43,978 nt of DNA from assembly GCA_016931995.1 (NCBI GenBank), contig JAFGDS010000080.1:1-43978 (forward strand), in the 5' to 3' direction. This DNA is from Pirellulales bacterium. GTDB taxonomy: Bacteria > Planctomycetota > Planctomycetia > Pirellulales > Thermoguttaceae. Under the pieces are notes generated by a model. That model worked only from the letters and a program-made list of their open reading frames with translations, was not told where the DNA came from and searched no databases. Shown in pieces: positions 2,018-39,547 of the stretch. Each line of letters starts with the position of its first letter. Within the stretch, counting starts at the first letter, position 1. Position numbers and translations under genes: made by a program.

Positions 2018-2503
2018 CGTTTCCGGGAGGGCGAGGCTCCCGCCGAGCCGTGGACACTGCTGGGCAAGCCAGCCGTGGCGCCCCATTGCCGCGAAACCAG
2101 GGAAAATCGGGAAAAAACGCTCTCCGGCATATTCTGCTGCCGGTCGCAATGCGTATACTGGGATTTTGCCATCCGCCACTGTGACCGGCGCGCCGTGAAG
2201 GCCTGGTTCGGTGTTTTGTTTCCCACCTGGAACAGCGAAGCGGGGAGGCCGGCCAAACGGTCCGTCCGCGGCCGTGGCTTCCTCCGGCGCCAGCTTCAAG
2301 ACTGGCGATTGGGGAAGCCGTCTCCGCTTCGTTTACGCGGAAGGGGGCGGTTTTCTGCCGTCTTTTCCGCCCCTCTCGATCGAGGGCGCCTTCCGTTTCG
2401 ACTTCCTTTCGTTCGTGCGGCCTGGGTTTGCCCGCGGGCGCGCGGGGGCTGTTGCTTCCGCTTTCTTGTGTCTGGACATGTTGAATTGCGAGGAGGTGCC
2501 GCG
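2018..2503. other. 486-bp gap before the citrate-lyase-type operon
   Basis: No convincing gene was seen. It contains a partial inverted repeat at 2051-2082 and a TATACT hexamer at 2154-2159 that could be a -10 box, though no good -35 lies at the right distance. The rest is GC-rich sequence without clear structure. If transcription starts near 2165, aclB would have a leader of about 340 bases. Confidence 0.6.
2051..2082. repeat. Partial CACTGCTGG/CCAGC dispersed repeat
   Basis: The core CACTGCTGGGCAAGCCAG (2055-2072) continues into CCGTGGCGCC. It is the same kind of element as the short hairpin at 32234-32256. Confidence 0.55.
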
Positions 2504-3796
2504 GTGAACGTGCGGGTAGGCGAGCTTGGCTTTTTGAAGGAGCTGGCGGGGCGGTTCAAGATTCCGGCGCCGGACTACGTTGTGGAGCCGGTGGCCCAAA
2601 GCGTCGTGCGGGAGAAGCTGGAGCGATGGGGCGCCGGCATCATCAAGCCGGACGTGCTGACCGGAAAGCGCGGCAAGGCGGGGATGGTTCGGACCGTGAC
2701 GGACTACCGCGAAGCGGTGCGGATGCTCAAGCAGGTGGCGGCCACGGAAGTGTCGGGCCAACAGCCGCGGACGGCCTACATGGTCCAGTCCGTGCCGGCC
2801 GACCTCGAGGTGTTTTCGGCCATCACGTACCACTCGGGCCTGCTGGGGCCGTCGCTGACGCTTTCGCTCGAGGGCGGCGTGGACATCGAGTCGGTGGCCG
2901 ACTCGGCCAAGGCGACGATTCCCGTCTGTGTGTTCCGCGGCCTGAACGCCTACGAGGCCTCCGAGGCCCTCTCCAAGTTGGGGCTGGACGGCCAGCTCAA
3001 CGCCAATCTGGCCCGATGCCTCGTGAGTTTGTGGGACCTGTTCATCTCGACCGGGATGCTCAGTTGCGAGATCAACCCCTGGCGGGTCACCCGCTCGGGC
3101 GAGGTCCACGCCTGCGACTTCAAGGCCACCTTCGACGAAAACAACCGGAAGTTCCGCGACCTGGGCATCCAGTGGCCGGAATACCCGACCAACGAAACGC
3201 CCTTCGAGGAGGAAATGAAGGATTGGGCCGCGTCGAGCTATCGGGGGCAGGCGCACGTGTCGGACCTGGGGGGCAAGAGAATTCTGCCGATCCTCTTCGG
3301 CGGCGGGGCCAGCACGATCATCATCGAAACGCTCAGCCAACTCGGCGGCGACCCCATCTTCCTCTCCGATTTTGGCGGCAATCCGCCCTACGAGCGGATG
3401 AAGCAGACCGCGGCCATCTGCTTCAAGCATTACCTGGGCGAGGCCACGCTGCTGTTGATCCTCGGAGGCAAGGCCAATAACACCCGGATCGACGTGACCT
3501 TCGCCGCCATCGCCGACGCCTTGCAGGAATGGGTGGACGAGCACGGGCCGCGGGATATCCCGGTGGTGGTCGGGCGCGGCGGGCCGGGGTTGATCCAGGG
3601 GTTGGGCCAACTGAAGAAGACGCTCGACAACCTGGGCATGCCCTACGTGTTCTTCGGACCCGACACGCCCATCACCATGGTCGCCGCCTACGCCGCCGAA
3701 CTAGCCAGTCTTCCCGCCGAACCGCAAGCAGAGGCCGCGCCCTCGACGGATGCCGCCCCCCAGACCGACGCCGCGCCGCAGGAGGTGACATCATGA
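2504..3796 (+). CDS. aclB: ATP-citrate-lyase-type small subunit (ATP-grasp plus citrate-binding domain)
   Basis: The 430-residue product aligns by eye along its whole length with the N-terminal part of ATP citrate lyase. An ATP-grasp/succinyl-CoA-synthetase-beta-like region comes first (IIKPDVLTGKRGKAG near 46-60, EGGVDIESV, then CEINPW). A citrate-binding-like domain follows, with GGGAST near residue 267, GGKANNTRIDVTF and VGRGGPGLIQG. In characterised enzymes this subunit binds ATP and citrate and forms citryl phosphate with the partner. An Ala/Pro-rich tail follows about residue 405 and looks disordered. GTG 2504 has AGGAGG just upstream. The stop overlaps the partner's start (ATGA at 3793-3796), so translation is coupled. 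Naming follows the green sulfur bacteria, where small aclB precedes large aclA; plants use the letters the other way. Confidence 0.88.
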   Translation: MNVRVGELGFLKELAGRFKIPAPDYVVEPVAQSVVREKLERWGAGIIKPDVLTGKRGKAGMVRTVTDYREAVRMLKQVAATEVSGQQPRTAYMVQSVPADLEVFSAITYHSGLLGPSLTLSLEGGVDIESVADSAKATIPVCVFRGLNAYEASEALSKLGLDGQLNANLARCLVSLWDLFISTGMLSCEINPWRVTRSGEVHACDFKATFDENNRKFRDLGIQWPEYPTNETPFEEEMKDWAASSYRGQAHVSDLGGKRILPILFGGGASTIIIETLSQLGGDPIFLSDFGGNPPYERMKQTAAICFKHYLGEATLLLILGGKANNTRIDVTFAAIADALQEWVDEHGPRDIPVVVGRGGPGLIQGLGQLKKTLDNLGMPYVFFGPDTPITMVAAYAAELASLPAEPQAEAAPSTDAAPQTDAAPQEVTS

Positions 3797-5871
3797 TTAA
3801 AGCCAAATCCCTTAGCGATCTGCTGAAAAAGGGCGACCGCGTCGCGGTCTCGAACATCACCGGCCGCGAGGCATCGGCCGTGTCGTGCGTCTCGCAAGTG
3901 TATTGCAATAACGTCGTGGCCGGCTGGTCGCTGGGCAAGGCGGGCCGAACGATCACCGTGCCCTCCGGCGACGATATCCCCGTCTTCGGCCAGTTCGACC
4001 AGATGATGAACGATCTGCCCGAGGACAAAAAACCCAATAAAATCATCGTCTACTCGCCGCCCGAGGCCGTCTACGGCGACGTGAAGGAAGTGATCGAGCA
4101 CGGCAAGGGCCAAGTCGAGACGATGTACGTCATCACGGAAAACGTTTCGATCGAAGTGACCGCGAAGCTCCGCCGGCTGTGCGACCAGGAAGGGTTTGAC
4201 ATCGTCGGCTGCAACACGCTGGGCGTGATCAACGTCCACGATCAGGTTCGCGTCGGCGCGGTGGGCGGCGATTCGCCCGCCGAGTCGTTCTTGCCGGGAA
4301 GCGCCTGCATCCTGTCCAACTCCGGCAACATGGTCAACACGATCGCCAGCTACCTTCAGTCGGCGGGCTTGGGCGTTTCCTACGGCGTGGCCACCGGCAA
4401 GGATCCGCTCATCCTCACGCCGATGAAAAGGCTCCTTGGCCTGGCCGAACGCGACGAGCGGACGAAGCTGATCGTGCTGTACGTCGAGCCGGGGGGAACC
4501 TACGAGCATGAAGCCCTGGAAATGGCCCGGGCCGAAGGCTTCACCAAACCGCTCCTCGTCTACGTGGCCGGATCGTTCGCCGAAGGGAAGAACGTCTCGT
4601 TGGGCCACGCCGGCGCCGTGGTCGAGGGCAATCTCACCACCGCCACGGCCAAAATGGCCCTGTTCGACGAGTATCTCGGGCTGCCGGTCTTCAACCCGGA
4701 CCATCAGAAGGAGTTCGTCGCGCAATTGGCCCAGACGCGTCGCGGGCTTCGCGTGAACACGCTGCACGACCTGGTGCCGGCCGCGGCAACGCTGCTGGCC
4801 GCCATGGAGTGGGAACGCGACATGATGCCCAAGAGCCCGCTGGTGCTCAAGCCGTGGCTGGTGAACCTCGGCCCGCTGGCCGGCAAATTGCCCAACCGGC
4901 TCGTGCCGCACGTCGAGGCGATCATCGAGCCCTACGGGTCGCTCATCAAGAAGTACATCCACTCGGGCCTGGGCCGCACGCCCTCCCGCCAGTCGATGCG
5001 CAACGCCTCGCACGCCTCGAGCAACGACGGCGTGACGCCGCGCGTCTGGGGCTATTCGCTCCTGAACCAGATGAAGGCCCACTCGTTCGTCAAGTCCGTG
5101 CTCCTGTACTGGCTCGGCGAGCCCGTGCGCTACGAATTCGAGGCCCGATTGTTCGAGATGTCGCTCATCGCCGCCTTGACCAACGGCCCCGGCACGATCT
5201 CGGCACAAGGGGCCAAGCTCTGCGCCTCGGCCGGCAACGACCCGCACGTCGCCATGATGACCACCCTGGGCACCATCGGCGAAACCCACGGCGGCAACGG
5301 CCGCCTGGCGGCCAAGCTGCTCATCGACGTGTTCAGCAACACGACGCTGGTCGACCCGTACCGCCGCGACCAGGGCATCGCCCTGGACGAGCTGGCCGCC
5401 GCGCACGTCTCGACCTTCAAGAAGCACAAGGCCGCGGCCAAGGAGGCCGGCATCGACTACGCCAAGGTGCCCTGCCTGGGCCATCCGGTGTTCAACAAGG
5501 CCACCGTGAACCACGACCCGCGCGAACGGATCATCTCGGCCTATCTGGAGGAAAACGACCTCTACAACATCTTCCTCGACTTCTACCACCGCTTGGCCAA
5601 GGAGCTTTACAGCCAGCAGGCCACCAGCAAAGTACACGCGGTGAACGTGGACGCGGCGATCACATGCGTGTTGATGGGCATCGCGTGGCCCCGGCTGGTC
5701 GAGAAGCAGATGACCGTCGAACGCGCCCTGGACCTCCCCTTCCTTGCCTTCGCCCTGGGTCGCGTGGCCGGCGGCGCGGGCGAATACCTCGACCACCGCG
5801 AAACCGGCACCGAAATGGACATGCGCGTCCCCGTGGCCGAATGCCGCACGCTGGGCCGGGCGCGGGATTGA
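3793..5871 (+). CDS. aclA: ATP-citrate-lyase-type large subunit (CoA ligase plus citrate-synthase-like domain)
   Basis: The 692-residue product is longer than the roughly 610 of typical large subunits. Residues 1-310 form the CoA-binding and CoA-ligase part with [11 protein letters not shown], where His272 matches the residue phosphorylated in this superfamily. About 100 residues of poorly matched linker follow. The C-terminal part (about 410-680) is citrate-synthase-like: [32 protein letters not shown] (His564) and VNVDAAI (Asp620). By-eye alignment with human ACLY suggests the His of ADHGPAVSG is Asn464 here and the Arg of GHRV is Pro565. The fold and coupling with the upstream subunit support an ATP-dependent acyl-CoA lyase acting in central carbon metabolism, with citrate the likeliest substrate but not certain. 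The start follows GGAGG with a short spacer. Confidence 0.85.
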
Positions 5872-33430: not shown

Positions 33431-36400
33431 TCACGCGACGCCGCTGGCGACCAAGAGGTCCGCCAGGAAGTCGTCCCAGAGGTCGTCGCCGATCGTGACG
33501 TCGTCGTCCGGGTCTTCGTTGAAGTAGCCGTACTGGGCGAACACTAGGTCGATGGCCGACGTCGGATTGCCCGTCACCACAGGGGCCGACGCCGGGGCGG
33601 GCCAATAGGTTTGGCCGATGTGTGACGCCATGATGCTGAAATCAACCGGCGATACTTGGCCATCGAAGGTGAAATCGCCCTGGTACCACGTGGCGCCGCT
33701 GGTCGTTCCCCAGTAGGTGGCGAAGATCTCCCAGTCGATGTCATCGACCCGGCCGTCCAGGTTGGCGTCGCCTTGGAGCAAGAGCGAGAAGGCGTACGCG
33801 AAGTCCCCGCCGACCTGGCCGTCGCCCGAGGCCCCGTCGTTCCAGAACTGGCTCGTGCCGGACGTGTCGCCGATGAAGTCGGGCCCGTCCCATTCGCCGT
33901 CGAGCGAGAGGCCGTTGGTCGCGGCGATGGCGTCGGAAAGCTCCAGGACCCACTCGCCGTACTTCCACGTCGTGCCGAAGGTCCAGGTGACCGTCGAGCC
34001 GTTCACCGTGACGCTGGTGGGCGCGTACTCGGTTCCTTCGCCGCGCTGGTCCGTGAGGGTCAAATACGTCAATAACTGGGCCGGCGTGGAGGCCACGGCC
34101 CGGGTGAACGCCAGGGTGACTTGATTCACGCCGTCGAACACGGCGACGGGCAACAACTGGTCGTCGTCGCCGGCCTCGGGGGTCATTTCGATGGTCGAGC
34201 CCGGCACGGCCGAATTGGCCAATGCCATGTACGTGACCTGGAACGCCTGGGGCCACTGCTGCGAGCCATAGTTGGCCGCGAGGACGGCCAGGTCCAAATC
34301 GTCGACGAGGCCGTCGCCGTTGAAATCGCCCTCCTCCCACGTCATGCCCGACATGAGCCAATGGGAGGCCACGATGCTGGAGTCCGTGCCGGTGACCGTG
34401 CCGGAGAGGTTCGCGTCGCCGGGGAGCAGCAGAGAGAACGCGAAGTCAAAATCCCCGCCGTACGCGCCGTCGCCGGACGTGCCGCCGTCCTCAAAACTGC
34501 TCGTGCCGGAAGTATCCAGACGGTATTCGGGACCATCCCACTCGCCATCGAGCGGACCCGCCCCGGACGCGGCAATGGCGTCCGACAGCGACAAGACCCA
34601 CGCGCCAATCTTCCACGTCGTGTCAAACGTCCACGTGACGGTGAGGCCGTCCACTTCGACGCTCGTGGGCGTGTACTCCGTGCCAAAACCGTGCTGGTTC
34701 GTGAGAGTCAGGTAGTCCAACAGATCCTCGGTCGATGAGGTGACGGCCTGGTCAAACGTCACGATCACCTGATTGACGCCGTCGAATACCGGCAAGGGAT
34801 CGAGCTGCCAGAAGTCCTCCGCGGCCGTCGGGATCTCGATCTCCGAGCCGGGCACGGCGGAGTTGGCCACCGACACACCGGCGACGTGCAGGGCCGTCGG
34901 CCAGTACGTGCCGCCGGGCGTCGTCTGCAAGGCGAACGCCATCACGAAATCCCCGCCGCAGACGCCGTCGCCCGAGGTCCCGCCGGCGTCGAACGCGCTC
35001 GTGCCGGTCGGATCGCCGACGTAGCCCGGCCCGTCCCACTCGCCGTCCAGCGGCACGCCCTCCGCCGCGATCGAGTCGGACAGCGTCAGCACCCACTCTC
35101 CGACGTCCCACGTGGTGGCGAACGTCCAGGTAACCGTCTCGCCGTCGATGGACACGCTCGTGGGCGTGAAGATCGTGCCCGTACCGCGCTGGTCGCGAAG
35201 CACCAGATCGTGGACCAACGCGTCGACCGGCCGGTCGAACGTGACGATCACCTGGTCCATGTCCTCGTACACGGTCAGGGGAAAAAGCTGCACGTCGTCG
35301 CCGGCCTCGGTGTCGATCGCCACGGTCGAGCCGCTCACGCCCGACTTGGCCACGGCCACGCCGGCCACCTTCGGCCCGTCGCTGGCCGACTGCTCCAGCC
35401 AATGGTCGCCCATGATGTCGAGGTCCATAAGGCTGACCATCCCGTCCAGATTGAAGTCGCCGTCGGTCCACGCCGCGCCGCTGGCCGTGGGGTAGTGCTG
35501 CAATAAGATCTCGAAATCGCTAAAAGAGACCTTGCCGTCCAGGTCGGCGTCGCCGGGCAGCAACAGCGAGAACAGGAAGTGGAAATCCCCGCCGTACGCC
35601 CCATCGCCGGAGGTCGTGTCGTCGAAAAAGTCGCTCGTGCCCGACGTATCGCCCAAGTACTTGGGTCCGTCCCACTCGCCGTCCAGCGCCCGCCCGTCGG
35701 CCGCCTTGACCGCGTCGGACAGGCGCATGGCCCAGTTGCCGAACGTCCACGTGTCGCCGAACGTCCACGTCACGGTCGAACCGTCGGTCGTCGCGCCGGT
35801 GGGCGTATACTCCGTGCCCGTCGCCCGGTCCACCAGCACGAGGTCGCCGACCGACGCGAGCACCGGCTCGGAGAAGGTGACGATCACGCGGTTCATGCCG
35901 TCGAACACGGGCAGCGGCAGAAGCTGGTCGTCGTCGCCCGCGTCCGTGGGGATCTCCACCTCGGAACCGCTCACGGCGGAGTTGGCCACCTCGACTTTGG
36001 CCACCGTCGGGCCGACCGGCCAGACGTGCAGCTCCCAGTTGGCGTCCGCGACGGCCTCGTCCGCGGCGTCCACGTCGCCGTCGAAGTCGAAGTCGCCGTT
36101 GGCCCAGGTCGCTCCGCTGGCCATCGGGTAGTACGTGTAAAAGATGTCACAGTCCGAATCGTAGACCTCGCCGTCCAGGTCGATGTCGCCGGGCATCAAA
36201 AGCGAGAAGCCGAACGCGAAATCGCCGCCGGGCTGGCCGTCGCCCGAGGTCCGGTTGTACTGGCCCGACGTGCCCACCTGCAGGAAGAAGCTCGTGCCCG
36301 AGGCGTCGTCGAAGTTCGCCGGTCCGTCCCACTCGCCGTCCAGGGCCACGCCGTCCGCGGCCACCACGTCGGACAGCCGCAGCACCCAGTTGCCCAGCCG

Positions 36401-39400
36401 CTGGGTCGCGCCAAACGTCCACGTAACCACCGTGCCGTCGGCCGAGACCGCCGCGCTCGTCGCGCCGTGCTGCGTGCCCGTGCCGTACTGGTCGGTCAAC
36501 GTCAGCGCGGTGCGCAGGTCCTCGCCCGAGGTCGAGATCGGCCGGTCGAACGTCAAAATCACCTGGTCCATGCCGATGCACTGGCCCGCGGCGTCGAACA
36601 CCGGCAGCGGCAGAAGCTGATCGTAGTCGCCCCGCCGCGTGGGCACGGTGATCGCCGAGCCGCTCACGCCCGAGTTGGCCACGGCCACCTGGGCGACCTT
36701 GGGGGCGGCGTTGACGTAGCTCGTGCCGGCCGAAAGCTGGGGCCAGTAGGCGTCGTGCCAGTGGCCGGCGAGGATGGCCAGGTCGCTCTCGTCCACGTCG
36801 CCGTCCGCGTTGAAATCGCCGTCCGTCCACGCGGCGCCGCTGGCCGTGCCCAGGTTTTGGGCCACGATCTGCGCGTCCGCGTCGTTCACCATGCCGTCCA
36901 TGTCCGCGTCGCCGGGCAGCCGCAGCGCGAAGGCAAACTCAAAATCCCCGCCGTGGAAGCCGTCGCCCGAGGTCATGTCCAGGAAACTGAACGAAAACGC
37001 CCGGGTGGACGACGTGTCGCCCCGATACCGCGGCGCGTCGGTCCACTCGCCGTCCAGCGCCGTCCCGTCGGCCAGCACGTCGTCGGAGAGCTTCAATACC
37101 CACTCGCCGGTTTGCAGGGTCGCGCCAAAGGTCCACGTCACCGTCAGCCCGTCCACCGACTTCGTCCCCCCGGTCGGCGTCTTCACCGCGCCGGTTTGGT
37201 GGTTGGTGAGCGTCAGCAGATCCGCCAGTTCGGCCTCGGAGGAGGACACGGCCCGCGTGAACGTCAGGATCACCTGGTTCATTCCGTTCGCCACGGGCAG
37301 CGGGTGAAGTTGAAGATCCGTGCCGACACACGTGGGCACGAGAATCTCCGAACCCGAGACACCCGAGTTGGCCACGCTCACCGACGTCACCTGAAGCGGA
37401 TCCGGATCGGAGCCCGGCGGTTCCGGAATGTCGGGTGTCCAGTTCGCGGCGAGAATGGCCAGGTCCAGGTCGTCCACGGTGCCGTCCAGGTTGAAGTCGG
37501 CTTCGGTCCAACCGACGTTCGAGGTCCACAGCCAATGCGCCGCCAAGACGGCCGCATCCTCGCCGTCGACGTTGCCGTTCAGGTTGGCGTCGCCCGGCAT
37601 CGGGGGAGCGATCTCCTCGACGTTGGAGAACTCGGAGGTATTGCCATTTTGGAGATCCGTGGCGACGATGGTCACCCAATCGCCTACACTCAACTGCGCC
37701 GCGGGGATGCCCACGTAGTACGGATCGTCCCAACTGGAGTAGTGGCCGTTGGCGTCGGTGGTTCCCGCCAAGTCGTCCACGAAGTTGTACTCGTGGGCCT
37801 CTTCGTCGTACACGTAGACCTGAAACGCGAATGTAGTGCTGGCGAAATGGGCGGCGGGCGCGTCCAGGGAGAAGGGAATGACCCACGCGTTGTTCTCCAG
37901 CCATATCCCGTGGGTGTTGATTACCGGGGCCGCCAGCCCGCGATTCACTCCGTCGGTAAGCTGGATCGGGCTGCTCGGGTCAACGAAGGTATTGAGAAAG
38001 AAACAGGCGTCGTAAACCGCGGCATCCGCGGCAACCACGGAGCCGCCGCTGTTGTCCGTAAACGTGTTTTGAATGATCGCGATGTCGTGAGTGCTCGCCT
38101 GGTTGGTGCAATGGACCGACACGCCGGCGCCGATGTTCTCTTCGATCTGATTGCCGTAGAGGACGTCGTTCAATGGCGTGGCGGAGATCGTAACACCGCT
38201 CGTGCTGGATCCGGATCCATCGCTCGCGACAGCTACGCCATCTGCTCCATTCTCCGATATCACGTTTGGATAGATGGAGTACGTGCCATTGCCATTGTCG
38301 ACGACGGCTGGGGAGATTGTGACGTCGCTGAGATCGCCGCCCGTGGTACTGGAGAGGAGGATGCCGTGGCCGTCGTTGCCGCTGACGAGATTGCCTTGAA
38401 GGTCGATGCCCTGCGAGGTCCCCGTGCTGCCGGAGGCCACGACGACAATCCCGTTTTCGTTATTGTCGGCGATGGTGTTTCGGAGGAAGAGAAGGTCCTC
38501 GCTGTTGTCGGCGTTGACGCCCGAAGCGTCGTTGCTGCGCACGCTGTTCTGTTCGAGGATCACGTCCTGGCAATTGGCAAGCGCGACGCCCGACTCGCCA
38601 TTGTAGCGGATTTCGTTTCCGAAGATAAAGGAGTTGCCGCCGGCGCCGCGAAGCCCCACGGCGTGGATGCCGCATCCGTCGTTCGACAGAACGGTCGTTC
38701 CCGTCGCATTTGTGCCGATCGCGTTGTAGTAGATTTGGACCTGCAGCGCCATGCTATCGTTGCCGTCCAATTCGATCCCATTGTCGCCGTTGTTGACGAT
38801 CGTATTGGAGGCAATGGTGACCATGCCGGTGCCATCGCAGTAGATGCCGTCCGTCTCGTTGTCGTATGTGCTGCCGTTGTTGCCAATGTAGTTAGAGGCA
38901 ATCGACAGCACGTCAGCGTGGCCTCTGTGCGAAATCCCAAGGACTTCACCGAAGATCGTGCAATTGTTGATGGAGATGGAGTCGGCGTCGACGTTTGAGC
39001 CAATGAAGAAACCGACGCCGTTGTGACCGTTATCCGACACGGCACCACAGCTCGTTATGGTCACATTCTTCACATTGGCCCAAACCTCAAACGCGGTCCC
39101 AGTAATGTTGTAGAAGACCACATCGCTGATCGCGACGTTGCGGTACTGTGCGGTGTTTGGGAGTGTGTTAAGGAGATCCATCACGAAACCGTTGGCATAG
39201 CAATTGCTCCCATCAATGACAACATCGGCTGACGTTCCAGATCGCTGAATGACGACACCTTCCGAGATCTCTGGGAGGGAACGTGCGAGGGTGATCCAAG
39301 AAACGCCAGATTGAATGTAGATATAGTCCATGCCCAAGGAATTCGCTTGAGAATTCGCCTGGTTGATGGCCCACCTCAAAGTGTTTGGCATGTCGGGATC

Positions 39401-39547
39401 GCCGTAGGGTGTGTCGCCTTCAAGGGATACACTCCAACTGCTCAGAACGCGGCGGCCCTCCAATTGCTCGATCCGGAGCAATCTACTCCCTTGTGCCTGG
39501 CGTCTCCGGCGTGCATCGCGCGATGAAATGGTTTGTTGTTCTTTCAT
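33431..39547 (-). CDS. Giant surface protein: beta-helix, six Ig-like modules, six dockerin pairs
   Basis: The 2038-residue product has a basic N terminus and the planctomycete export motif RIEQLEGRRVLS near 24-35 (LEPRxL type) instead of a classic signal peptide. About 60-540 form a right-handed parallel beta-helix with short Asn-rich coils (NGDNGIELDGND, DNNENGIVVV, SGNDGHGILLS). From about 650 come alternating modules: EF-hand-like dockerin pairs (GDANLNGNVDGEDAAVLAAH) and Ig-like domains starting VANSGVSGS and holding QVILTFTRAV, VTWTFG and LDGEW. Ig modules start near 719, 949, 1179, 1392, 1554 and 1771. The fourth lacks its dockerin. The tail after 1975 is acidic. It is the last of four tandem surface genes. 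Adhesion or polysaccharide binding is inferred; enzyme activity is not evident. Confidence 0.9.
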   Translation of the reverse strand: MKEQQTISSRDARRRRQAQGSRLLRIEQLEGRRVLSSWSVSLEGDTPYGDPDMPNTLRWAINQANSQANSLGMDYIYIQSGVSWITLARSLPEISEGVVIQRSGTSADVVIDGSNCYANGFVMDLLNTLPNTAQYRNVAISDVVFYNITGTAFEVWANVKNVTITSCGAVSDNGHNGVGFFIGSNVDADSISINNCTIFGEVLGISHRGHADVLSIASNYIGNNGSTYDNETDGIYCDGTGMVTIASNTIVNNGDNGIELDGNDSMALQVQIYYNAIGTNATGTTVLSNDGCGIHAVGLRGAGGNSFIFGNEIRYNGESGVALANCQDVILEQNSVRSNDASGVNADNSEDLLFLRNTIADNNENGIVVVASGSTGTSQGIDLQGNLVSGNDGHGILLSSTTGGDLSDVTISPAVVDNGNGTYSIYPNVISENGADGVAVASDGSGSSTSGVTISATPLNDVLYGNQIEENIGAGVSVHCTNQASTHDIAIIQNTFTDNSGGSVVAADAAVYDACFFLNTFVDPSSPIQLTDGVNRGLAAPVINTHGIWLENNAWVIPFSLDAPAAHFASTTFAFQVYVYDEEAHEYNFVDDLAGTTDANGHYSSWDDPYYVGIPAAQLSVGDWVTIVATDLQNGNTSEFSNVEEIAPPMPGDANLNGNVDGEDAAVLAAHWLWTSNVGWTEADFNLDGTVDDLDLAILAANWTPDIPEPPGSDPDPLQVTSVSVANSGVSGSEILVPTCVGTDLQLHPLPVANGMNQVILTFTRAVSSSEAELADLLTLTNHQTGAVKTPTGGTKSVDGLTVTWTFGATLQTGEWVLKLSDDVLADGTALDGEWTDAPRYRGDTSSTRAFSFSFLDMTSGDGFHGGDFEFAFALRLPGDADMDGMVNDADAQIVAQNLGTASGAAWTDGDFNADGDVDESDLAILAGHWHDAYWPQLSAGTSYVNAAPKVAQVAVANSGVSGSAITVPTRRGDYDQLLPLPVFDAAGQCIGMDQVILTFDRPISTSGEDLRTALTLTDQYGTGTQHGATSAAVSADGTVVTWTFGATQRLGNWVLRLSDVVAADGVALDGEWDGPANFDDASGTSFFLQVGTSGQYNRTSGDGQPGGDFAFGFSLLMPGDIDLDGEVYDSDCDIFYTYYPMASGATWANGDFDFDGDVDAADEAVADANWELHVWPVGPTVAKVEVANSAVSGSEVEIPTDAGDDDQLLPLPVFDGMNRVIVTFSEPVLASVGDLVLVDRATGTEYTPTGATTDGSTVTWTFGDTWTFGNWAMRLSDAVKAADGRALDGEWDGPKYLGDTSGTSDFFDDTTSGDGAYGGDFHFLFSLLLPGDADLDGKVSFSDFEILLQHYPTASGAAWTDGDFNLDGMVSLMDLDIMGDHWLEQSASDGPKVAGVAVAKSGVSGSTVAIDTEAGDDVQLFPLTVYEDMDQVIVTFDRPVDALVHDLVLRDQRGTGTIFTPTSVSIDGETVTWTFATTWDVGEWVLTLSDSIAAEGVPLDGEWDGPGYVGDPTGTSAFDAGGTSGDGVCGGDFVMAFALQTTPGGTYWPTALHVAGVSVANSAVPGSEIEIPTAAEDFWQLDPLPVFDGVNQVIVTFDQAVTSSTEDLLDYLTLTNQHGFGTEYTPTSVEVDGLTVTWTFDTTWKIGAWVLSLSDAIAASGAGPLDGEWDGPEYRLDTSGTSSFEDGGTSGDGAYGGDFDFAFSLLLPGDANLSGTVTGTDSSIVASHWLMSGMTWEEGDFNGDGLVDDLDLAVLAANYGSQQWPQAFQVTYMALANSAVPGSTIEMTPEAGDDDQLLPVAVFDGVNQVTLAFTRAVASTPAQLLTYLTLTDQRGEGTEYAPTSVTVNGSTVTWTFGTTWKYGEWVLELSDAIAATNGLSLDGEWDGPDFIGDTSGTSQFWNDGASGDGQVGGDFAYAFSLLLQGDANLDGRVDDIDWEIFATYWGTTSGATWYQGDFTFDGQVSPVDFSIMASHIGQTYWPAPASAPVVTGNPTSAIDLVFAQYGYFNEDPDDDVTIGDDLWDDFLADLLVASGVA

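Follow-up and report, generated by a model that had tools for sequence, protein, structure and literature searches.

A probable two-subunit ATP citrate lyase from a Pirellulales bacterium with a citrate synthase-like set of active-site residues

The window analyzed here is the whole 43,978-nucleotide contig JAFGDS010000080.1 (C122 in the analysis) of the Pirellulales bacterium assembly GCA_016931995.1, a genome of 5.43 Mb that is 99.13% complete. Its plus strand carries two overlapping genes, at 2504..3796 and 3793..5871, which probably encode a two-subunit enzyme, an ATP-dependent citrate:CoA ligase joined to a citryl-CoA lyase (CCL). It would be an ATP citrate lyase (ACL) from a sister lineage of the postulated type II ACL. 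The pair belongs to a real, well-conserved enzyme lineage. Since this lineage was previously noted in planctomycetes by metagenomics, the novelty lies in the active-site pattern: the large subunit has Asn and Pro at two positions where canonical (type I) ACL has His and Arg, and His at a third where canonical ACL has Phe. No account of this swap was found in the surveyed portions of the literature (PMC5459899, PMC3522073, PMC6315080, PMC6783814, PMC9560492, PMC12137691, PMC2864759, PMC10115795).

The active-site residues of the large subunit were followed in two alignments. The family alignment contains 88 homologues, 65 of a short form (~690 aa) and 23 of a long form (~900 aa), and counts are given over the rows having a residue at the site. 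The lyase-domain alignment contains 47 rows: 33 family members, 8 canonical ACLs, 4 CCL-type lyases and the window genome's two citrate synthases. The canonical ACL rows are genome proteins carrying both ADHGP and PRFGG, separate from the named human and Chlorobium proteins. An earlier note on this DNA had listed as retained the phosphorylated His272 of GHAGA (4606..4608), His564 of GHPV (His564-Pro565, 5482..5487) and the catalytic Asp620 of VNVD (5650..5652); these positions were right, their codons were checked, and the residues are conserved in 88/88, 85/85 and 84/84 rows of the family alignment, respectively. The note had also placed Asn464 (5182..5184) at the His of the ADHGP motif of ACL and Pro565 at the Arg of GHR. 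The same pairing was obtained by a profile comparison with one canonical ACL (94.5%, E 8.2e-8), by HMMER alignments to solved CCL and ACL chains, and by the 47-row alignment. Asn464 was found in 86/86 and Pro565 in 85/85 family rows, so neither is a single-genome oddity, and both substitutions are real and fixed in the family.

Overlooked in the earlier note was His499 of HGGNG (5287..5289), which is kept in 84/85 rows. By alignments, HMMER and profile comparison, it coincides with the HGGAN His of citrate synthase and with the HGG His of CCL. In the 47-row alignment, the first site (464) is Asn in 33/33 family rows and His in 8/8 ACL, 3/4 CCL-type and 2/2 citrate synthase rows; the second site (499) is His in 33/33 family, 4/4 CCL-type and 2/2 citrate synthase rows, and Phe (PRFGG) in 8/8 ACL rows. 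Likewise, in HMMER alignments the solved CCL has both histidines, and solved ACL chains have the first His together with Phe at the second site. The two sites are 35 residues apart in all 62 measurable short-form rows and in 8/8 canonical ACLs. Because His499 aligns with the HGGAN His, the residues His499, His564 and Asp620 match the three positions (HGGAN His, GH His and NVD Asp) that act in catalysis in citrate synthase, and this triad is present in 84 or 85 rows. The pattern suggests that a catalytic His was not simply lost: the family retains that of citrate synthase and gives up that of ADHGP, and the missing ADHGP His would be offset by His499, which canonical ACL has as Phe. A pseudo-enzyme with a lost active site was considered but is not favoured, since no more than one row departs at any residue of the triad or at any substrate arginine. 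Among the DPR, GR and MDxR arginines of the lyase domain, Arg577 and Arg657 were found in every row with a residue there and Arg678 in 83/84.

The ADHGP His and the GHR Arg are presumably the counterparts of His900 and Arg976 of human ACLY, an equivalence by motif alignment. The same numbering is used in the available passages of PMC10115795, in which H900, R976, R1065, D1026, F347, E599 and H760 are named and an important part in binding CoA is ascribed to Arg976. The change to Pro565 may affect how CoA is handled rather than which acid is used.

What kind of enzyme do the two subunits form? The small subunit (2504..3796, plus strand; GTG start inferred) resembles AclB and the large subunit of citryl-CoA synthetase (CCS), with an ATP-grasp and a citrate-binding domain, and a likely ribosome-binding site, GAGGAGG at 2490..2496, is suggested by its position 7 nt before the GTG at 2504. 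Its stop codon is overlapped over 4 nt (ATGA) by the ATG of the AclA-like large subunit (3793..5871, plus strand; 692 aa, ATG to TGA), which combines in one gene a succinyl-CoA-ligase-like part (CoA-binding/ligase alpha) and a citrate-synthase-homology (CSH) lyase domain. Pfam models over their cut-offs were ATP-grasp_2 (65 bits) and Citrate_bind (54.3 bits) for the small subunit, and Succ_CoA_lig, Ligase_CoA and Citrate_synt for the large subunit; a third model on the small subunit, Citrate_synth_N, fell under its cut-off, as did every model in an NCBIfam scan of both subunits. The best solved match of both is the Hydrogenobacter CCS 6hxq (E 4.6e-34 and 4.3e-39), the second value being that of the small subunit against the CCS large subunit 6hxq_B. 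From homology and motifs, the small subunit and the first ~340 residues of the large subunit would use ATP to phosphorylate His272; the phosphate would pass from His272 to citrate, and CoA would then give citryl-CoA.

The substrate can be approached through the small subunit, which carries the motif GGKANNTRIDVTF (3464..3502, plus strand), containing ANNT, and a second motif, GRGGPG (3572..3589, plus strand), both located by row comparison. Both correspond to motifs of the citrate-binding site in human ACLY structures. The ANNT is invariant in 61 short-form rows, the corresponding residues in ACL/CCS rows being ANFT or ASNT. The ANxT/ASNT and R-x-GP (RGGP) motifs are kept in the small subunit and absent from three succinyl-CoA-synthetase-like rows. 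In the earlier note, the altered residues had been taken to suggest a different acyl-CoA substrate. An enzyme for methylcitrate, homocitrate, citramalate or malate, for example, would fit the unusual Asn464 and Pro565, the Asn between the Asn and Thr of the citrate motif where canonical ACL has Phe, and the NCBIfam scores, all of which are under cut-off. However, CCSs have the same motif Asn, the lyase arginines are retained, and the scanned neighbours of the family pass NCBIfam cut-offs as aconitase and isocitrate dehydrogenase rather than as homoaconitase or methylcitrate enzymes. A non-citrate substrate is therefore improbable. The claim of the note is not supported, given the kept citrate motif and arginines and the aconitase (acn) and isocitrate dehydrogenase (icd) genes beside short forms in several phyla, and a different substrate on account of Pro565 was set aside, the context speaking for citrate. 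These neighbours, together with the retained ACL/CCS motif, make citrate the likely substrate as far as sequences can indicate.

The neighbourhood evidence comes from loci other than the window. An isocitrate dehydrogenase cluster lies within six genes of the pair in 11/65 short-form loci and an aconitase cluster in 8/65; neither was found within six genes in any of the 23 long-form loci. Several of the short-form runs are tight and on the same strand, and the gene orders include B-A-acn-icd (L031, L033, L038), acn-icd-B-A (L053), icd-B-A (L056) and B-A-icd (L067, L073). Among the 70 of 94 operon neighbours that were scanned, Iso_dh was found 7 times, GntR 6, aldehyde dehydrogenase 4 and aconitase 4. 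With NCBIfam, 5/5 dehydrogenases passed as NADP-dependent isocitrate dehydrogenase (two models) and 3/3 aconitases as aconitate hydratase. Aldehyde dehydrogenase genes adjoin the short-form pairs in L030, L078, L054 and L072; the one tested, that of L072, scores above the cut-off for L-glutamate gamma-semialdehyde dehydrogenase, which hints at a connection with glutamate/proline metabolism. In the window itself no operon evidence was found: among eight hand-chosen open frames that were scanned, the nearest to the pair encode an RF-1 domain protein, an AlgH-like protein and a DUF5131 protein. A member of the same cluster as the RF-1 domain gene also stands ahead of the pair in L026, a Pirellulales locus.

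The same gene runs bear on the direction of the reaction, for which the earlier note had suggested a possible departure from the usual one. The enzyme could work mainly in citrate synthesis (acetyl-CoA + oxaloacetate + ADP + Pi → citrate + ATP + CoA), supplying aconitase and isocitrate dehydrogenase with citrate so that anaerobes can make glutamate, a reading that is possible but somewhat unlikely. The runs with acn and icd at short-form loci favour it, as does the lack of any 2-oxoglutarate:ferredoxin oxidoreductase family among the 25 of 61 neighbour families listed. The window genome, too, has neither SucA nor KorA over cut-off, its single KorA-family match scoring 38.5 bits against a cut-off of 482.75 and its SucA-family match 31.9 against 770; with these scores, a role in a reductive tricarboxylic acid (TCA) cycle in this organism was considered and is not supported. 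Among 50 carrier genomes, mostly draft bins (47 with the short and 3 with the long form), 31 have a full-length citrate synthase, 18 have none and 1 has only a fragment. Of the genomes with the 11 icd-adjacent loci, four lack citrate synthase (L031, L033, L055, L073), one has the fragment (L035) and six have the enzyme. However, most carriers and the window genome do have a citrate synthase, its absence elsewhere is weak evidence with almost every carrier a draft bin, no search was aimed at Re-citrate synthase, and gene content does not show direction.

Several points weigh against assigning the pair as an ACL with a citrate synthase-like lyase site. In the surveyed portions of the literature, no measured activity was found for the short form. 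The position of Pro565 is basic (Arg or Lys) in 14/14 comparison rows, covering ACL, CCL-type lyases and citrate synthase, and hhalign against a single citrate synthase gave a probability of only 24.7% (E 7.9e-4). The short form L077 has Tyr at 499, and in the CCL-type lyase L160 the DHG position is occupied by Asn, which means that neither Asn464 nor His499 is an absolute marker. In 54/65 short-form loci, that of the window among them, neither the aconitase nor the icd cluster was found to have a member within six genes, many of these loci being cut by contig ends. Two ordinary citrate synthases are encoded in the window genome, which makes the need for this enzyme there unclear. Finally, it is disputed whether the CSH module of ACL takes part in catalysis or has only an allosteric role, and for human ACLY it has been argued to be allosteric rather than catalytic, as described in the available passages of PMC10115795; if this applies to the family, the argument from the triad loses its point. 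With a citrate synthase-like triad and without counterparts of ACLY His900 and Arg976, the family offers a natural test of this dispute.

An ACL of a separate lineage remains the preferred assignment, and the phylogeny bears on it directly. Maximum-likelihood trees were built for the ligase alpha part and the small subunit (46 rows each) and for the lyase domain (47 rows). In the alpha and small-subunit trees, the short and long forms are sister groups, their joint clade is supported at 100/99 and 100/100, and canonical ACL lies outside it. CCS falls on the family's side in the midpoint-rooted alpha tree (99/94) and not in the small-subunit tree. In the lyase tree, the family, ACL and CCL are separate, with the short form at 87/81. 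Several long branches were flagged by the program in these trees and could group falsely. The divergent branch proposed in the earlier note is thus borne out for both subunits, which lie in a strongly supported group outside canonical ACL, and neither a His at 464, nor an Arg beside His564, nor a placement inside the standard ACLs was found. A drifted canonical ACL, with residue changes of no mechanistic meaning, would share the same two-subunit build and overall fold, but the fixation or near-fixation of Asn464, His499 and Pro565 across many phyla and the separate group of both subunits make this reading highly implausible.

The spread of the family is patchy. A species-genome scan, of which the best 80 of 528 loci were kept (62 short, 18 long), covered Planctomycetota, Kiritimatiellota/Verrucomicrobia, Lentisphaerota, Spirochaetes, Deltaproteobacteria, Fibrobacteria, Elusimicrobia, Nitrospirota, Calditrichota, Ignavibacteria and others. 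Among these 80, the closest homologues are from planctomycete bins, mostly Pirellulales, at 76-78% identity. In the window's phylum, 8/392 genomes match at E 1e-30, including the window genome, one long form and one match to the ligase part only; other genomes drawn from the window genome's family, order or class gave no match. The most divergent short form among the best 80 of 528 loci is L077, a Lentisphaerae chromosome locus (45% identity); with its Tyr499, it is possibly inactive or misaligned.

The large subunit is also unusually long, at 692 aa compared with 608-623 aa in seven canonical AclA open frames (an eighth, of 812 aa, has an uncertain start). The earlier note had put the excess at about 85 residues, all between the ligase and lyase parts. 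The length holds approximately (~80), and the location only in part. The distance from the phosphorylated His to the Asn/His site is 192 residues versus 140-144 in the 7/8 canonical AclAs in which it was measurable, an excess of 48 to 52; the Asn464-His499 interval has no excess, His499-His564 has 25 (65 versus 40) and His564-Asp620 has 5. These spacings assign about two thirds of the excess (~50 residues) to a linker of residues ~300-397 (4690..4983) and ~25 residues to an insertion inside the lyase domain, approximately at 5344..5460. In the AlphaFold model of the large subunit (pLDDT 84.6), mean confidence is below 60 for residues 351-390, within the linker. The model aligns to ACL chains over residues ~1-683 (534-557 residues) with a root-mean-square deviation of 17-19 Å, because the two halves are set differently. 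The highest Z among the structure matches listed, 38.1, is to the CCS small subunit 6hxq_A (325 residues, 3.4 Å, residues 6-380), an alignment that extends into the linker, up to residue 380. The 50 matches listed include neither a citrate synthase nor a lone CCL, an absence given no weight here.

The long form, sampled as 23 rows, has the same Asn464/His499/Pro565 pattern in the family alignment. It has, in addition, a degenerate CSH-like domain before the active one, which was detected by a short-form lyase profile in 23/23 rows and is lacking in the window protein, with one CSH domain in its 692 aa versus ~900 aa in the long-form rows. E values for this copy range from 4.8e-16 to 0.019, and the best of 460 shuffled sequences reached 0.053, so the weakest rows are modestly above chance. 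The copy rests on HMM scores, the reported stretches never cover the GHPV segment, and the alignments of L093, L016 and L013 have no His at the 499 position. In L101, the degenerate domain occupies residues ~409-640 ahead of the active one, as if half a dimer had been fused in and silenced. Near 4 of the 5 plasmid long-form loci examined, genes for DctA, TctA/B or 2-hydroxycarboxylate (di/tricarboxylate) transporters were observed, which also points to citrate.

The long form is very likely the type II ACL that has been postulated for magnetotactic cocci and for symbionts of tubeworms, an identification drawn from primer-encoded motifs and from occurrence in the order of a Magnetococcales bin; named type II ACL proteins lie outside the alignments. 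Published type II ACL primers for tubeworm symbionts encode VAKEEWF and NGFEAIA, according to the available part of PMC3522073. AKEEWF, with at most one mismatch, occurs in 9/23 long and 1/65 short forms, and NGFEAIA, likewise, in 6/23 long and 0/65 short forms. At the DNA level, both best primer matches are correctly ordered and 1.28-1.37 kb apart in 12/23 long forms and not in the other 11; mismatches are 3-6 for each primer in L099, L097, L015, L016 and L103, and at best 6 and 5 in short forms. Within the order to which L099, a Magnetococcales bin, belongs, 38/48 genomes carry the long form. A sample of 398 genomes from the phylum of L099 gave the same 38 carriers and none besides, so the gammaproteobacterial type II ACLs of the literature were not recovered. 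In accessible text of PMC6783814, a postulated type II ACL is reported for Magnetococcales, and strain MC-1 is described as having detected citrate cleavage, no CCS, CCL or ordinary ACL genes, and two open reading frames of the postulated type II ACL. For tubeworm symbionts, the type II ACL genes are described together with acn, idh, mdh, kor and tfr (PMC6315080, in the portion available).

How does the window pair compare with known systems? The nearest description is in PMC5459899, whose available passages report fused planctomycete homologues, with relatives in Spirochaetes and Phycisphaerae, placed between CCS-CCL and type II ACL; those passages are silent on active-site residues and gene neighbours. 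Two planctomycetes described there, OTU-14 and DG20, are of the same phylum as the window organism and hold the same place relative to CCS-CCL and type II ACL, a comparison by description. DG20 has the same fusion of ligase subunit and lyase in aclA, unlike OTU-14, in which two genes are apart. The window gene most likely belongs to this fused planctomycete group. Type II ACL, if it is the long form, is the sister group in three trees with the same three residues and, according to the portion of PMC6315080 available, has acn and idh neighbours, but it is ~900 aa with the degenerate CSH-like domain that the window form lacks. Hydrogenobacter CCS-CCL provides the closest solved relatives of both ligase parts, and its lyase keeps the HGG His; however, its ligase subunit and lyase are separate proteins rather than one 692-aa gene, and the solved CCL and 3/4 CCL-type lyases keep the DHG His, unlike the Asn464 of the family. 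The exception, at L160:2340-3137, is a free-standing CCL-like protein with IDNG and a kept HGG, from a genome in the phylum of a Nitrospiraceae bin, and it suggests that the Asn-at-DHG swap may have arisen outside the family too.

Canonical ACL (human ACLY, Chlorobium AclBA) shares with the window pair the domain order, the phosphorylated His in GHAG, the catalytic Asp, the GH motif and the fold, and its two-subunit build (ATP-grasp/citrate-binding; ligase alpha + CSH lyase) is the one seen here. It differs in having the ADHGP His, GHR Arg and RFGG Phe where the family has Asn464, Pro565 and His499, in an AclA that is ~80 residues shorter in bacteria, and in forming a separate clade. Citrate synthase matches the family at the catalytic positions His499, His564 and Asp620, but has its own DHG/DHE His and neither a ligase domain nor use of ATP. 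A bolder reading, which is speculative and rather unlikely, is that in the short form and type II ACL the CSH lyase is truly catalytic through His499-His564-Asp620, canonical ACL having given up one His. The two groups would then use different histidines for citryl-CoA cleavage, perhaps after separate ligase-lyase fusions, and the enzyme would serve as an ATP-yielding citrate synthase in anaerobes without citrate synthase. Surveys that take ACL genes as a sign of CO2 fixation can pick up this enzyme in organisms that lack a reductive TCA cycle.

Two other open frames of the window were observed on the minus strand. One, of 702 aa (3688-5796), lies opposite the large subunit and looks like a by-product of high-GC codon use. 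The other, of 2038 aa (33431-39547), contains dockerin type I and right-handed beta-helix domains.

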